From Bryobacterales bacterium (GTDB lineage: Bacteria > Acidobacteriota > Terriglobia > Bryobacterales > UBA6623), in NCBI GenBank assembly GCA_028819215.1, contig JAPPMG010000097.1, forward strand, positions 62,001 to 126,000: 64,000 nt of DNA, read 5' to 3'. Below are positions 6,299 to 13,939 of the stretch, piece by piece. The translations under genes and the position numbers were made by a program. The notes beneath the pieces were generated by a model. That model was not told the origin of the DNA, searched no databases, and was given only the letters and a program-made list of their open reading frames with translations. Positions within the stretch are counted from its first letter, which is position 1; the number at the start of each line of letters is the position of its first letter.

Positions 6299-7651
6299 CT
6301 AATGGCCTTGCCGGGCGTCGGCTAGCCAGGTGCTGAACTCGTTCCAGAGCCGTTGTGCCAGCGCAGGCCGGTCGGCGGCAAGATCGCGCGATTCCGCGAA
6401 GTCAGTTTGCAGGTCGTAGAGCTCCAGCGGGGCCGCCGGGGACTGCCGGACCAGCTTCCAGCGGCCTTGGCGCATGCCGCTGATGTCTCGGTAGCGAAAG
6501 TAGATATTGCGGTGAGGAGAGCTGGCCCCGTCACGCAGGACCGGCAGCGGGTCACGACCGTCGATGATGCGGTCATCGGGCGCTTCGATGCCCGCCGCCC
6601 TCAGGGCCAGCATGAACAAGTCCATGTTGACCAGGGGTTCGCGCACGACTGCGTTCGCGGGCAGCAAGCCCGGCCAGCGGATGATGCACGGGGTGCGGAC
6701 TCCGCCCTCGTATACCGAAGTCCGCCCGCTGCGGAACGGGGCGTTGGAGGCTACCTCCAGCTCGGGCTTTCGCGATCCCACCCAGGCGCCGTTGTCGGAT
6801 GCCAGCATGACCAAGGTCCGCTCGGTCAGCCCGCTGGTGTCGAGTTGCTGCAAGACCCGGCCAACTCCGGCGTCTAAAGCGGTCATGACGGCGCGGTAGC
6901 CCTCCTCTGCCACGCTGGTGTCGGGCGAGTACCCATAGACCTCGAAGAACTCGGCGGGAGCCTGCCAGCGGAATAGCTGGCCCTCCGCTTTGTTCCTGCG
7001 GTTGGGGTAGTGCGCGGCGTTGAACGGCACCAACAAGAAGAAGGGCCGGTCAGAGCTGCGTCGGATAAAGTCGGCCGCAGCGTCGGCGAAGATGTCCGTC
7101 GAATAGCCCTCGATGCGCGTGGGTTCCGTGCCTACGTGCATGTCCAGCCGTCCGTTATAGACGTGGGTGTAATAGTCGCAATTGCCCGAGATGCAGCCGA
7201 TGAACTCGTCAAATCCCCGATCAGTCGGTCGGCTGCCCTCGGCGAAGCCGATGTTCCACTTGCCGAAGGCGGCCGTCGCGTAACCGTGCTCGCGCATGAT
7301 CTCGGGCAGCAGTCTCTCGGAGTGGGGCAATCCGATCCCGCTCCAGTTCTCCTGCACCGAGAGCTGATGCGTCAGCCCGTTTCGCTCCGGGTAGCGCCCA
7401 GTTAGCAGCGCTCCTCGCGATGGAGAGCATGACGATGAGGGGATGTAGAAGTCGGTCAGGCGCACCCCTTGGGTCGCCAGGCGGTCCATATTGGGGGTGC
7501 GAATAGCTGGATTGCCGTAGGATGCGAGATCGCCCCAGCCTACGTTGTCGATGTAGATCAGGACCACGTTCGCCCGCTGGCGCTCGGTGGACTGGGCCTG
7601 GACCGCGAGGCAGCAGGCCAGCAAGATCGTGCTGTGCGCAAGAAGTCGCAT
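6299..7651 (-). CDS. Secreted formylglycine-dependent sulfatase
   Basis: This 450-residue type I sulfatase has a signal peptide ending near VQAQ. Its active-site motif SCSPSRGALLTGRYP has Cys75 as the formylglycine site; the metal-binding IDNVGWGD is at about 34-41 and the second metal site is in MLASDNGAW. Such enzymes hydrolyse sulfate esters, here probably on polysaccharides outside the cytoplasm. It starts three bases after the stop of the upstream sulfatase gene, so the two are co-transcribed. A Cys-type sulfatase needs a formylglycine-generating or radical-SAM maturase, which is not in this window. Confidence 0.92.
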   Translation of the reverse strand: MRLLAHSTILLACCLAVQAQSTERQRANVVLIYIDNVGWGDLASYGNPAIRTPNMDRLATQGVRLTDFYIPSSSCSPSRGALLTGRYPERNGLTHQLSVQENWSGIGLPHSERLLPEIMREHGYATAAFGKWNIGFAEGSRPTDRGFDEFIGCISGNCDYYTHVYNGRLDMHVGTEPTRIEGYSTDIFADAAADFIRRSSDRPFFLLVPFNAAHYPNRRNKAEGQLFRWQAPAEFFEVYGYSPDTSVAEEGYRAVMTALDAGVGRVLQQLDTSGLTERTLVMLASDNGAWVGSRKPELEVASNAPFRSGRTSVYEGGVRTPCIIRWPGLLPANAVVREPLVNMDLFMLALRAAGIEAPDDRIIDGRDPLPVLRDGASSPHRNIYFRYRDISGMRQGRWKLVRQSPAAPLELYDLQTDFAESRDLAADRPALAQRLWNEFSTWLADARQGH

Positions 7652-7654
7652 GGG

Positions 7655-9040
7655 CTATTCGATGATGGTCGGCTCCTCGCCGTGCATGAGCGGGTTGCCG
7701 AACACTGTCAGAGGATCGTTGGTCTGCTCGAGCCATTCGTCCAGCAGGGCTCGCATTTCAGCCAGCTGGCCAGAGAACCGCGGGTCTGACGCCAGATTGT
7801 GCTGCTCGTGCTTGTCGTTGGCTACATAGTAGAGTTCTTCGGCAGCTCGCCTGCGATAGCGCTCCACGATGGCTATCGCCTCTTCGTCGTGCTTGGCGGC
7901 CTCGATCCAAGACGGCCAGTAGCGGCGGCCCGAGCGCAGCCCGCCGCGGTTGATGTGCGTCGCGAACTGGAATTCCGGGTGAAGGTTGCGGATGTACTTC
8001 CAATCGGCAGTCCTCACGGACCGCATCGGAAACACGTTAAAGTCACGGTCGCCGCTGTGGGTGGTGTAGACCTCGCTCCTGTGCGTGTCTGATTCGCCGC
8101 GCAGGACCGGAGCGAACGACCGCCCGTCAATGTCTCTCGCTGGATCACCGCCGGCCAGTTCGACGAGCGTCGGCAGAATGTCCATCCACTGCACCATCGC
8201 ATCCGTGCGGAGTCCGGGTTCGATGACGTCCGGCCAGACGGCGATCATCGGTGTTCGCACGCCCGCGTCATACAGATTCCACTTGCCGAAGGGCATTTGC
8301 AGGCCATGGTCGCTGGTGTGCAGGAAGAACAGGTCGTCCCCGAACCTTGACCGGGCCGCGTCGTAGACCCTCCCAAGCTCGTCGTCCATATTTTCCACGG
8401 CCGCAGAGTAGCGGGCGCGCGCAGCGAGCGTTTCGGGGGTGTTGACGAATGTCGGCGGCAACAGCACTGCGTCAGCCGCATACGCCGTTTGGCCCAGCGG
8501 CCATGGCACGTGCGGCCAGTTCGAGCCCACAAAGATGCAGAGCGGCTTTTCGCCGGTGTGCCGCGCTATGAACTCGATGGCTGCTGGGATAGCAGCGTGG
8601 TCGTGGAAAGTGTCATGGGCAAAGTGATCAAAGCCGTAGTCCTGCGTGTAGCGGTAGTGCGAGACCTTACCGAACGCCACGACCTCATAGCCCAGCTCCT
8701 GTAGGTATGAGGGCAGCTTGCGCAGTTCCGCGCGCGGCTTGGCGTGATTCGCCTCCGCGCCGTGATGGGCGGGATATAGGCCGGTCAGCAGGGTTGCCCG
8801 GCTCGGCGCGCAAGCCGGGGAGTTCACGAACGCCCGTTCGAACAGCAGGCCTGAGGAGGCCAAGCGCTTCAGGTTCGGGGTCCGCATCTCCTGTGCACCA
8901 TAGGGAGCGCTGTCGAGAGCCCCGTGATCGTCGGACAGGAAAATGACCAGATTCAGCTTCGCAGCAGCTAGCGTGGTGCCAATCGCAAGGGTCATAGCCG
9001 CGACTATGACCGTGCGAAGGACGGCGAAGCAGTGGAACAT
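7655..9040 (-). CDS. Secreted sulfatase, N-sulfoglucosamine sulfohydrolase-like
   Basis: The 461-residue protein has a signal peptide (about 1-26), the N-terminal metal site LSDDHGALDSAPYG and the active-site motif ACAPSRATLLTGLYP with Cys77. A metal site in LHTSDHGL and the pattern APYGAQEMRTPNL also fit the heparan N-sulfatase subgroup. It is the first gene of a two-sulfatase operon. The different subgroup of the downstream partner suggests they act on different sulfate positions of one polymer, which is inference. Confidence 0.9.
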   Translation of the reverse strand: MFHCFAVLRTVIVAAMTLAIGTTLAAAKLNLVIFLSDDHGALDSAPYGAQEMRTPNLKRLASSGLLFERAFVNSPACAPSRATLLTGLYPAHHGAEANHAKPRAELRKLPSYLQELGYEVVAFGKVSHYRYTQDYGFDHFAHDTFHDHAAIPAAIEFIARHTGEKPLCIFVGSNWPHVPWPLGQTAYAADAVLLPPTFVNTPETLAARARYSAAVENMDDELGRVYDAARSRFGDDLFFLHTSDHGLQMPFGKWNLYDAGVRTPMIAVWPDVIEPGLRTDAMVQWMDILPTLVELAGGDPARDIDGRSFAPVLRGESDTHRSEVYTTHSGDRDFNVFPMRSVRTADWKYIRNLHPEFQFATHINRGGLRSGRRYWPSWIEAAKHDEEAIAIVERYRRRAAEELYYVANDKHEQHNLASDPRFSGQLAEMRALLDEWLEQTNDPLTVFGNPLMHGEEPTIIE

Positions 9041-10284: not shown

Positions 10285-11703
10285 ATGAGCAAGAGAAAAG
10301 GGGAGTCTTCCGAACCGCTCCGCGCGTTGCCCGGAGTGGACCAGGTGCTGAATTCCCCGGCAGCTGCGCCGTGGCTGGATCGCTTGCCGCGCGAGCGCGT
10401 GGCGGATCTCGTGCGGGAGGCGATCGCGGAGCTTCGCGAATCGCTGCTCGCCGATGCGTCGCGGGCCCCCGAGGATCCGCTAGGGACGGTGGCAGCCAAG
10501 GTGGGCAGATTGGTACAGAGCTTGAGCGCCAGCAGCTTGCAGCCGGTCATCAACGCGTCGGGCGTGATCCTGCACACCAATCTCGGTCGAGCCCCGCTCG
10601 GCCAGCCCGCGGCGGAAGCTGTCCGCTCGATTGCGGCCGGATACTGCAACCTCGAATACGACGTCGAGCAAGGTCGGCGGGGCAGGCGCGATGTGCACTG
10701 CGGTTCGCTGCTGGAACGCTTGCTCGGCGCTCCGGCGTTGGTTGTCAATAACAACGCCGCCGCGATCTTCCTCGTGCTGCACGAACTGGCCCGCGACGGG
10801 GAAGTGATCGTCTCCCGCGGCGAGCTGGTCGAGATCGGCGACGGCTTCCGCATTCCGGACATCCTAGAGGCTTCGCAGGCGCGACTCCGGGAGGTAGGCT
10901 CCACCAACCGGACCAATCTCGACGACTATCGCGACGCGCTAGGCGAGCGAACCAGGGCTCTGCTGCGCATCCATCCGAGCAATTTCAAGCAAGTAGGCTT
11001 CACAGGGCGCCCGACAATCGAGCAGCTAGTCGGCCTTGCCAAGTCCGTTTCGCTGCCGCTGATCGAGGACTTGGGTAGCGGCTGCCTCACCGACCGTCTC
11101 GCGCCGGGCATCGAGGGGGAGCCGCCCGTGTCGCAGAGCATCAGGGCCGGAGTGAGCCTGGTGACGTTCTCCGGGGACAAGCTCCTCGGCGGACCCCAGG
11201 CCGGCATCATTGCCGGCGACCCCGACCTGGTGGCGCGGGTGAGGCGGAATCCGCTGTTCCGAGCGCTGCGCGTGGGCAAGCTGACGTTGGCCGCGCTCGA
11301 AGCGACGCTGCGCTCATACTTGGCGGGTCGGGAAGACGAGATTCCGGCCCTGAGGCTGATGCGGGTTCCTGCAGACGTGCTCAGCTCGCGGGCGCACAAG
11401 TTGGCGCAACGGCTCGTGGAGCATGGCGTTTCCGGGTGCAGCGTGGTCGCGGGAGAGTCCCTGCTGGGCGGCGGGTCCACGCCGATGCAAAGGGTGCCGT
11501 CGCCCTTGGTGGCGATCGAGGGGCGGCCTGGAGCAACGGCGGCGCAAGTAGAGAGCGGCTTGCGCTCCTATGACCCGCCCGTCGTGGCGCGCATCGAGAA
11601 GAATCGCGTCCTGTTGGACTTGCGAACGGTGCCCGAGTCCCAAGAGGACGACTTGGTCGCGGCAGTGATCCACTCGACGCGTCCGCGCAAGACGGGAGCA
11701 TGA
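10285..11703 (+). CDS. selA: L-seryl-tRNA(Sec) selenium transferase (selenocysteine synthase)
   Basis: SelA converts seryl-tRNA(Sec) to selenocysteinyl-tRNA(Sec) with selenophosphate, using PLP. The 472-residue product has the full SelA N-terminal domain beginning LPGVDQVL, needed for tRNA binding and absent from many SelA-like enzymes. It also has the INASGVILHTNLGRAPL core, the EVGSTNRT motif and the PLP lysine Lys299 in FSGDKLLGGPQAG. Length matches the family (about 460). An upstream TTG at 10249 is also open; ATG 10285 is chosen because SelA homology starts just after it. It is the first gene of an operon with yjbQ, a UGA-containing thioredoxin-like gene and a DsbD-like gene. selB, selC and selD are not in the window. 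Confidence 0.95.
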   Translation: MSKRKGESSEPLRALPGVDQVLNSPAAAPWLDRLPRERVADLVREAIAELRESLLADASRAPEDPLGTVAAKVGRLVQSLSASSLQPVINASGVILHTNLGRAPLGQPAAEAVRSIAAGYCNLEYDVEQGRRGRRDVHCGSLLERLLGAPALVVNNNAAAIFLVLHELARDGEVIVSRGELVEIGDGFRIPDILEASQARLREVGSTNRTNLDDYRDALGERTRALLRIHPSNFKQVGFTGRPTIEQLVGLAKSVSLPLIEDLGSGCLTDRLAPGIEGEPPVSQSIRAGVSLVTFSGDKLLGGPQAGIIAGDPDLVARVRRNPLFRALRVGKLTLAALEATLRSYLAGREDEIPALRLMRVPADVLSSRAHKLAQRLVEHGVSGCSVVAGESLLGGGSTPMQRVPSPLVAIEGRPGATAAQVESGLRSYDPPVVARIEKNRVLLDLRTVPESQEDDLVAAVIHSTRPRKTGA

Positions 11704-11704
11704 C

Positions 11705-12112
11705 GTGAAGTTCGTTGTCCACACGAAGGGATTTACCGATATCGTCGACATCTCGCAGCAGGTGCGCAGCGCCGTAGCAGCCAGCGGTGTCACGGAAGGG
11801 GTTGCGCACGTGTTCGTGCAGGGTTCGACGGTCGCGCTGTCCACGATCGAGTTCGAGCCGGGAGCCGTGCGAGACCTCAAGGAGGCCTTGGAGCGGATTG
11901 CTCCCATGGACGCGCGCTACCACCACAACGAGGCTTGGGGGGACGGCAACGGCTACGCACACCTGCGGGCGGCCCTGATGAAGCCTTCTCTGTCAGTACC
12001 GATCGCAGCCGGCCAGTTGCAACTCGGCACGTGGCAGCAGGTGATTTTGCTAGACTTCGACAATAGAAGCCGCAAGCGCTTCGTTCACCTGCAGGTGACT
12101 CCTAGTGTTTGA
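11705..12112 (+). CDS. yjbQ: YjbQ family protein (UPF0047)
   Basis: This 135-residue protein is a complete UPF0047 member. It has the conserved HVFVQGSTVALSTIEFEPG stretch, the YHHNEAWGDGNGYAHLRAAL signature with conserved histidines, and the terminal QVILLDFDNRSRKR block. E. coli YjbQ shows weak thiamine-phosphate synthase activity; the true role is uncertain. The GTG start is one base after the selA stop, and the gene's last eight bases overlap the GTG of the next gene, so translation is probably coupled. Its place between selA and a likely selenoprotein is unexplained. Confidence 0.9.
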   Translation: MKFVVHTKGFTDIVDISQQVRSAVAASGVTEGVAHVFVQGSTVALSTIEFEPGAVRDLKEALERIAPMDARYHHNEAWGDGNGYAHLRAALMKPSLSVPIAAGQLQLGTWQQVILLDFDNRSRKRFVHLQVTPSV

Positions 12113-13397
12113 TCGTCTCTCGCTGCTTCTCCGATCCGTGCGCATGCCTCGGGCAGGGCTGTGCTTCGGCCCGGCCTTGCTCGCTGCTGCAATCGGATTG
12201 CAACAAGAAGTCGCGTTCGCCAGGGATGCGGTGTCGTGGATCGAGAACTACGACGAAGCGATCGAGGTAGCGAGCAAGACCGGCAAGCCGATCTTTCTCG
12301 AGTTTCGGTGTGCCCCTTGAAGGGCCGGCAGAGCATTTGACGCACAGGTGGTGCTGACCGAGGAGAACACGAAGAGGGGAAAGCTGCTGCAGCAGTACGT
12401 GACTGCGCGCATCACGCGGATGGACCGGATCAATATCGGGCTATTCGATTACGACCGCTACAACACGTTGTACTTTTTCGTGTTGAACGCCGACGAGCAA
12501 ATCTACTTGCGTTACGGCGGGCGGGACGTGCGCTCGGCGACCAGCTATCTCGACTTGGAGAGCTTGGAACTCGCGCTCGAGCAGGGGTTGGAACTGCACG
12601 AGCAGTATCGCGCCGGCAAGCTCGCAAAGCGGCCTGTGCCGCTACCGAAGTATCCCCGTGACATCCCTGCGCTCGTCGAGCGAACGGTCGGTCGTGGCCG
12701 GTGCGTGGAGTGTCACCTGATCGGTGACCTCGAGAACGTTCAGCGCGAAAGGGAGGGCACACTCGACAAGCTCAGGGACCTCCACAGGGCACCGGACATC
12801 CGCAAGCTCGGAATCGAACTCGACGTGCCCAAGGCCCTGAGGATTGCTAGCGCCGCAGGGGCCGCCGCCGCCGCGGGCGTGCGCTCAGGTGACGTGATCC
12901 GCGAGCTCAGCGGTGTCGACGTGTGGACGTTTGGCGACTTCCAGTGGGAGTACGGCAAGGTGCCCCACACTGCAACTCGGCTTGCAATCGTGGTCGAGCG
13001 CGATGGCTCCTTGGTGGACCTGACCGTCCAACTTCCGCGATTCTGGTGGCACACAGACCTGACCTATCGAAATCTCTCGGTAGACCCGCGCGTCTACTTC
13101 CGGTCCGAGCCATTGACGCCTGCGGAGAAGCGCGGCCTGGGGCTGGAAGGCGAGGGCTTTGCCAGCCGCGTGGTCTCGATTGATTCCTTATCGGACATCT
13201 TGGGAAGTCACCAACTCCAAATCGGCGACGTCATCTATGGCGTGGATGGCGAGACCCGGGATGAGGTCGCTAACACGGCGGAACTCCACATCAAGTTGCG
13301 TCGGCAGGCTGGGTCGGAACTGTCGTTGCAGGTGCTGCGCAGCGGAGAGCGCATCGAGATGGCGCTCAAGACCACGAGGATGAGTTTCAGGAAGTGA
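12105..13397 (+). CDS. Predicted selenoprotein: exported thioredoxin-like CxxU domain with CxxCH haem site and two PDZ domains
   Basis: The frame is open from GTG 12105 to the TGA at 13395, interrupted only by an in-frame TGA at 12318-12320. Read as selenocysteine, it gives a 430-residue protein. An N-terminal hydrophobic segment (about 14-38, with ATG 12144 as alternative start) looks like a signal peptide. A thioredoxin-7-like domain follows with GKPIFLEFRCAPU, placing Cys69 and Sec72 as a C-x-x-U redox pair, then RAGRAFDAQVV. CVECH (Cys200, Cys203, His204) is a c-type haem site. Two PDZ domains follow, roughly 245-325 (AGVRSGDVI) and 345-425 (LQIGDVIYGVDG). selA lies two genes upstream. 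The next gene overlaps the stop by four bases. A plain nonsense mutation is unlikely because the UGA falls exactly at the second redox position. Confidence 0.85.
12318..12320 (+). other. In-frame UGA predicted to encode selenocysteine
   Basis: The codon follows TGT GCC CCT, so the peptide reads C-A-P-U. The frame stays open for 358 further codons with clear domain homology. Related thioredoxin-like proteins carry a cysteine at this site (FRCxPC), as I recall the family. Confidence 0.85.
12326..12360 (+). promoter_or_regulatory. Candidate bacterial SECIS hairpin after the UGA
   Basis: Stem CGG/CCG, then CAG/CTG with one bulged A at 12357, then an A.G mismatch and GC/GT pairs; the alternative pairing CATT/GGTG closes an apical loop of about nine bases. 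The loop begins TG, about 18 bases past the UGA. That fits the general bacterial rule of a short apical loop with a G among its first two bases, 16-37 bases after the UGA. Folding was done by eye. Confidence 0.5.
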
Positions 13398-13939
13398 CGT
13401 TCGGATTTCGCGTCGCCGTCGCGGCCATGTTCACCGCAAGCCTGTGGGCCGGGAGTTGGTCCGCCCCTGCGGAGGCCACGGATGCGGCCGGGAACGCCCT
13501 CGTGACGTGTCGCGCCAAGCTGAGCGGCGATCACTTGGTGGTGGAGATCCGGGCCACTCAAGGCTGGCACGTGTACGCCATGGACAATCAGCTGCGTGCC
13601 AAGGAAGCACTGGCGGGCAGGATGTCGCTGGGCGTCGAGCAAGACACCGAAGTGCTGGTGTCCGGGGGCTTGAAAGTTGTCGGCGACTGGTTTCAAACCA
13701 TGCCCGAGGACTTCTCCCAGCCCGAGCTGCGCTGGTACTCCTATGGGTTCGAAGGCACGTCCACTCTGGCGGCTGAGGTAGAGCGCACGGTGGGCGAATC
13801 GGCCAGCGTGACGGTGCGCGCGCAAGCCTGCGATAGCGAGAGCTGCGTGGCTGTCGAGGCGGACTTGAGCGTGCCGCTGGCCGACGCTGCTGGGGAGCCC
13901 TTCAGCACCGACGGCCTAGTGCCGGTTCGCTCTTCTTAG
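13394..13939 (+). CDS. Exported DsbD-alpha-like (nDsbD) domain protein
   Basis: The 181-residue protein has a signal peptide (about 1-28) and a single immunoglobulin-like DsbD N-terminal domain, recognised by GWHVYAMDN near the start and the redox pair QACDSESC. In DsbD this domain receives electrons from the membrane part and passes them to periplasmic thiol proteins. Here the transmembrane and C-terminal thioredoxin domains are absent, so it would act as a separate periplasmic shuttle. The GTG start overlaps the upstream TGA (GTGA), which implies translational coupling. Its natural partner by position is the CxxU protein upstream, which is inference. Confidence 0.75.
   Translation: MTFGFRVAVAAMFTASLWAGSWSAPAEATDAAGNALVTCRAKLSGDHLVVEIRATQGWHVYAMDNQLRAKEALAGRMSLGVEQDTEVLVSGGLKVVGDWFQTMPEDFSQPELRWYSYGFEGTSTLAAEVERTVGESASVTVRAQACDSESCVAVEADLSVPLADAAGEPFSTDGLVPVRSS

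Follow-up and report, generated by a model that had tools for sequence, protein, structure and literature searches.

A Trx7/PDZ selenoprotein encoded with a DsbD-alpha-like partner in a Bryobacterales bacterium: a putative periplasmic selenol relay

Does the UGA codon at position 12318 of a 64,000-nucleotide stretch of a Bryobacterales genome (hereafter the window) end a short gene or encode selenocysteine (Sec), and what would the resulting protein do? The original prediction, made from the sequence alone, took positions 12105-13397 for one selenoprotein gene with an in-frame UGA, coding for an exported thioredoxin-like domain followed by a PDZ part. With this TGA read as Sec, 12105-13397 is translated into 430 residues with one internal UGA, codon 72, in the context FLEFRCAP-U-RAGRAFDAQVV. 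The gene starts with a GTG that overlaps the stop of yjbQ (an ATG at 12144 is an alternative start) and ends with a TGA stop at 13395. Under table 11 and without read-through it splits into 71 aa and 349 aa, the short peptide and the truncated PDZ protein that annotation pipelines had been expected to give. The features of the locus are collected in Table 1.

Table 1. Features of the locus (positions of the window)
Feature	Positions	Strand	Basis
selA, L-seryl-tRNA(Sec) selenium transferase	10285..11703	+	TIGR00474, 516 bits
YjbQ/UPF0047 protein, between selA and the selenoprotein gene	11705..12112	+	TIGR00149, 99 bits
Trx7/PDZ selenoprotein gene (NF041199)	12105..13397	+	translation, profile score, 48 homologues
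Thioredoxin-like (Thioredoxin_7) domain, residues ~38-170, after the predicted signal peptide	12216..12614	+	PF13899
Cys69, three residues before Sec72, invariant	12309..12311	+	alignments
UGA codon of predicted Sec72	12318..12320	+	TGA in 48/48 homologues
Putative bSECIS-like hairpin, core GACGCACAGGTGGTGCTG, apical GGU	12338..12359	+	invariant synonymous sites
CxxCH motif (CVECH), residues 200-204, in the linker from the Trx to the PDZ part	12702..12716	+	48/48
Two PDZ domains, limits approximate	12807..13379	+	PF13180, PF17820, PF00595; fold matches
Partner, predicted exported DsbD-alpha-like (nDsbD) protein	13394..13939	+	fold; PF11412 (weak)
Cys pair of the partner, C-x4-C (C-DSES-C), invariant	13829..13846	+	alignments

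The protein belongs to a family known since 2008, which selenoproteome reviews of 2022 and 2026 also list. It matches the NCBIfam profile NF041199, "Trx7/PDZ domain-containing (seleno)protein", with 398.9 bits (cut-off 300) over profile positions 2-389 of 390, and the CxxU motif of the family is present as C69-A-P-U72. NF041199 is listed with the motif CxxU in Table 1 of PMC13188914, which cites the 2008 ocean survey, and was entered as a PDZ domain-containing protein with Thioredoxin_7 in PMC9312934. In PMC9402790 it appears as 'MucD' fused to PDZ, with additional conserved Cys of unclear function, and the survey itself (PMC2398784) reported 2 Sec and 12 Cys sequences with CxxU under the name 'putative secreted serine protease MucD'. 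Because these four papers already contain the family, the description of the gene as previously unrecognised was wrong. No experiments on the NF041199 family were found in the literature searched. What looks undescribed is the faithful partner gene, the invariant CxxCH and the exact place of Sec in the active site, which are presented below.

Homologues were collected from genome contigs and from relatives, and then from further genomes, which raised the set from 24 to 48 distinct copies. They are at least 52% identical within the order, and one copy from another class is 44% identical. The original prediction had named three findings that would speak against it: a read error at 12318, homologues with unrelated residues at position 72, and the lack of selB, selC or selD. 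A read error, and likewise chance, is ruled out by the same UGA in independent assemblies, since codon 72, read in frame, is TGA in all 24 distinct homologues of the first set and in each of the 48 distinct full or near-full homologues of the enlarged one; this also leaves no copy with an unrelated residue there. Cys69 was expected to be conserved, and it is invariant among the homologues. A Cys at residue 72, looked for as further support, was found in none of the Acidobacteriota genomes searched (257 from the order, 396 from the phylum, 149 from another class). Three genome searches gave NF041199 matches in 66 genomes, namely 63 of 257 in the order, 2 of 149 in another class and one more (G265) in the phylum sample. 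Every match contains TGA, and all 63 genes of the order-level search have one TGA inside. Viral contigs and plasmids gave no relative. The homologues L031 and L056 have an in-frame TAG besides the TGA, for which sequencing error, a pseudogene or another cause may account.

The nucleotides that follow the UGA are constrained beyond the amino acids they encode. The UGA-proximal stretch GACGCACAGGUnGUG, whose synonymous sites are invariant in 48 of 48 copies, would form a bSECIS-like hairpin, and GACGCACAGGTnGTG is invariant across the 48. D79, A80, Q81, V83 and L84 (GAC GCA CAG, GTG and CTG) are each encoded by one codon in 24/24 copies; elsewhere, single-codon columns are limited to one (N120) of 40 invariant degenerate codon columns. 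This clustering after the UGA has a hypergeometric p of ~2.6e-5, uncorrected for kinship. Elsewhere in the gene all four Ala codons are used and GCA is rare. The hairpin reads GAC-GCACA-GGU-UGUGC-u-GUC, with GGU in the loop at ~26 nt after the UGA; its pairs are kept in 91% of the alignment cells, and in 2 of 14 distinct rows C-G replaces U-A as the outer pair. Published limits for bSECIS elements are a loop of 3-9 nt, an upper stem of 4-16 bp, a G in the first two loop positions, a distance of 16-37 nt from the UGA and an MFE of -7.5 kcal/mol or lower (PMC13188914). The geometry of the hairpin lies within these limits. The conserved core alone has -4.8 kcal/mol in the window and -9.4 in distant relatives; a 42-nt fold of the window copy reaches -13.1 kcal/mol, but with a different pairing. 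Since the window copy is no more stable than its shuffled versions (z -0.87), support for a putative SECIS element comes mainly from sequence conservation. An Rfam scan of the window gave no SECIS family match at the gathering score.

The machinery for Sec is complete. selA lies two genes upstream, as predicted, and selB, selD and selC (tRNA-Sec, anticodon UCA), whose absence would have spoken against a selenoprotein, are present in the genome outside the window, so that the gene set required of a bacterial selenoprotein (selA, selB, selC, selD) is there. Among 61 relatives, all 20 genomes with the selenoprotein gene have selB above the cut-off. selA is a neighbour of the selenoprotein gene in nearer relatives only, and yjbQ stands between them only in the nearest; a functional operon with selA and yjbQ was rejected on this account, and the linkage was treated as local. 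The selD of this genome (L061 on contig C92, 1387-3645, minus strand) encodes 752 aa with an N-terminal FAD/NAD-dependent oxidoreductase-like fusion, judged by eye; this seems to be the Ndh-SelD fusion of PMC2398784. On the minus strand of the window, 6299-7651 and 7655-9040 look, from their translations alone, like a pair of neighbouring sulfatase genes.

Conservation of the UGA, constraint on synonymous sites and complete Sec machinery make the Sec reading well supported, with no contribution from Cys homologues here, and at the level of sequence we regard it as confirmed that the UGA at 12318 encodes Sec and that 12105-13397 is one gene. That the UGA is a true stop, with a 71-aa peptide and a 349-aa PDZ protein made by re-initiation at GTG 12348, is hardly credible: both open frames exist, but frame, UGA and the amino acids on either side are kept in 48/48 homologues, the split would sever the thioredoxin domain, the synonymous sites downstream are constrained and the genome has the full Sec system.

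The thioredoxin-like nature of the N-terminal part was borne out by the match to PF13899 and by a fold like that of 3f9u; its export is predicted from the N-terminus by eye. The domain was modelled with a pLDDT of 86, and 3f9u is its nearest solved fold (Z 13.3, rmsd 2.5 over 115 residues, VIA-align). The active site was placed differently from the original prediction, which had put the UGA at the second redox position. Sec72 is matched to the first Cys of the CxxC, and Gly75 to the second, both in hmmsearch alignments to 3f9u and AGR2/3, which are weak matches (E 0.04 and above), and in hhalign and MAFFT alignments to the genome's own DsbD. The spacing from the strand to the Cys (F+5) is consistent with this assignment. 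Since Sec72 thus aligns with the first Cys and Cys69 lies upstream of it, the CxxU motif here is not a CxxC with Sec in second place. Instead of the CxxC or UxxC of classical thioredoxins and DsbD-gamma, the site would be Sec-x-x-Gly, with Sec72 at the first, nucleophilic position of the thioredoxin frame. At the cis-Pro site before the fourth strand the alignment, which is gapped there, has N-T-L/I/V-Y opposite I-P-F/T-Y.

A second gene accompanies that of the selenoprotein. Its start overlaps the selenoprotein stop (GTGA), and it adjoins the selenoprotein gene on the same strand in 44 of 48 loci; the other four have no match to it, and one of them ends too early. It is kept in other genera and in another class, where neither selA nor yjbQ lies beside the selenoprotein gene, and no other conserved neighbours were found in the distant loci. 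The pairing of the two genes is well supported. The AF2 model of the partner has a pLDDT of 90.5, and its best 19 PDB matches are all of the nDsbD type (18 DsbD and one ScsB). Against Pfam DsbD_N (PF11412) it scores 23.6 bits, just under the cut-off of 25, for which reason we call it DsbD-alpha-like and not a member of DsbD_N. Its CxxxxC pair is invariant in 22 alignment rows and is aligned by MAFFT with CDDRQC, the alpha-domain pair of the genome's only DsbD_TM protein; in hhalign of the partner against this DsbD the alpha domain was not found. Predicted fold and Cys pair thus suggest the link to DsbD, and sequence similarity is weak.

The surroundings of the partner vary. In some loci of one genus a PhyH dioxygenase-like gene lies between the two genes. 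The distance between selenoprotein and partner is ~700 nt in L069, L087 and L089 (also in L088, L090 and L091); the PhyH-like gene is seen in L089, similar frames occur in L069, L088, L090 and L091, and L087 differs. In L056, from the other class, the partner extends into an EF-hand-like C-terminal part, and a comparable EF-hand-like frame follows downstream in L057, both judged by eye.

We consider it probable that the two proteins form a periplasmic selenol relay, a split pair resembling DsbD-gamma and DsbD-alpha, with PDZ domains that bind clients. SelB and Sec-tRNA would read the UGA, aided by the conserved hairpin downstream, and both products would be exported, as their signal-peptide-like N-termini suggest to the eye. 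Sec72 would take the place of the attacking Cys of thioredoxin, with Cys69 as its likely resolving partner in a C69-U72 selenenylsulphide. The selenoprotein would then be a selenol oxidoreductase of the periplasm that exchanges with its DsbD-alpha-like partner as the gamma domain of DsbD does with the alpha domain; the tandem PDZ domains may bind a client or a partner. The direction of electron flow, the client and the donor, which may be the single DsbD of the genome, belong to the proposal.

The linker between the thioredoxin and PDZ parts brings in a further possibility, since its CxxCH is invariant (CVECH in 47 copies, CIECH in one). A c-type haem bound to this motif might pass electrons to or from the selenol on the same chain. 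The features that mark a c-type cytochrome, CxxCH in a predicted exported protein and maturation genes in the genome, are found here, the latter as three cytochrome c assembly (PF01578) loci, and two other invariant His residues, mature H128 and H332, add to this. On the other hand, CxxCH can also serve as a simple redox CxxC or bind a metal, a distal ligand was not found, and the linker has neither a Pfam match nor a significant match among PDB sequences (best E 0.31; the weak rows include SoxX, E 0.79, and cytochrome c3, E 2.8). A c-type haem on CxxCH is possible, and a haem-bearing redox pair is in our view an unlikely account of the protein, if one to keep in mind. More doubtful is the fuller scheme of a split DsbD-like system in which Sec thioredoxin, covalent c-type haem and PDZ domains on one exported chain exchange electrons with the DsbD-alpha-like partner. 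If true, such a selenol/haem relay would be undescribed for any selenoprotein family in the literature searched.

The PDZ domains, which lie in the read-through frame as predicted, offer another reading. They are most like those of DegP, DegQ, RseP and MamP; a likeness to MamP/MamE as such was set aside, as it arises through the PDZ domain. The PDZ part might serve as chaperone or adaptor for DegP/RseP-like envelope proteases, the seleno-thioredoxin reducing or isomerising their misfolded clients, and the name 'putative secreted serine protease MucD' in the original literature points the same way. The selenoprotein, however, has no protease domain, and no protease gene is conserved beside it, which makes this role quite unlikely.

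The selenol relay, our preferred reading, gives the family, catalogued since 2008 without a function, its first testable partner in the conserved DsbD-alpha-like neighbour. Sec at the putative attacking position without a second Cys, together with the invariant CxxCH, marks residues worth testing.

Compared with the other members of NF041199 (the 'MucD' of the GOS data; review example MCX6587993.1), the protein has the same domain order, length and CxxU Sec, and there is no difference in kind. The VPGUxxT thioredoxin-like (seleno)proteins NF041382/NF041383 likewise carry Sec in the active-site loop of a thioredoxin-like domain, but their profiles match only weakly (residues 42-83, 26.6 bits, far under the cut-off of 350) and they have no PDZ match, which places them in a different family. 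With DsbD the system shares a Thioredoxin_7 domain and a DsbD-alpha fold that bears a Cys pair; the two are encoded together, and export is predicted for each. It differs from DsbD in that these are two separate proteins without the transmembrane beta domain, in having Sec-x-x-Gly in place of Cys-x-x-Cys, and in the added PDZ domains.
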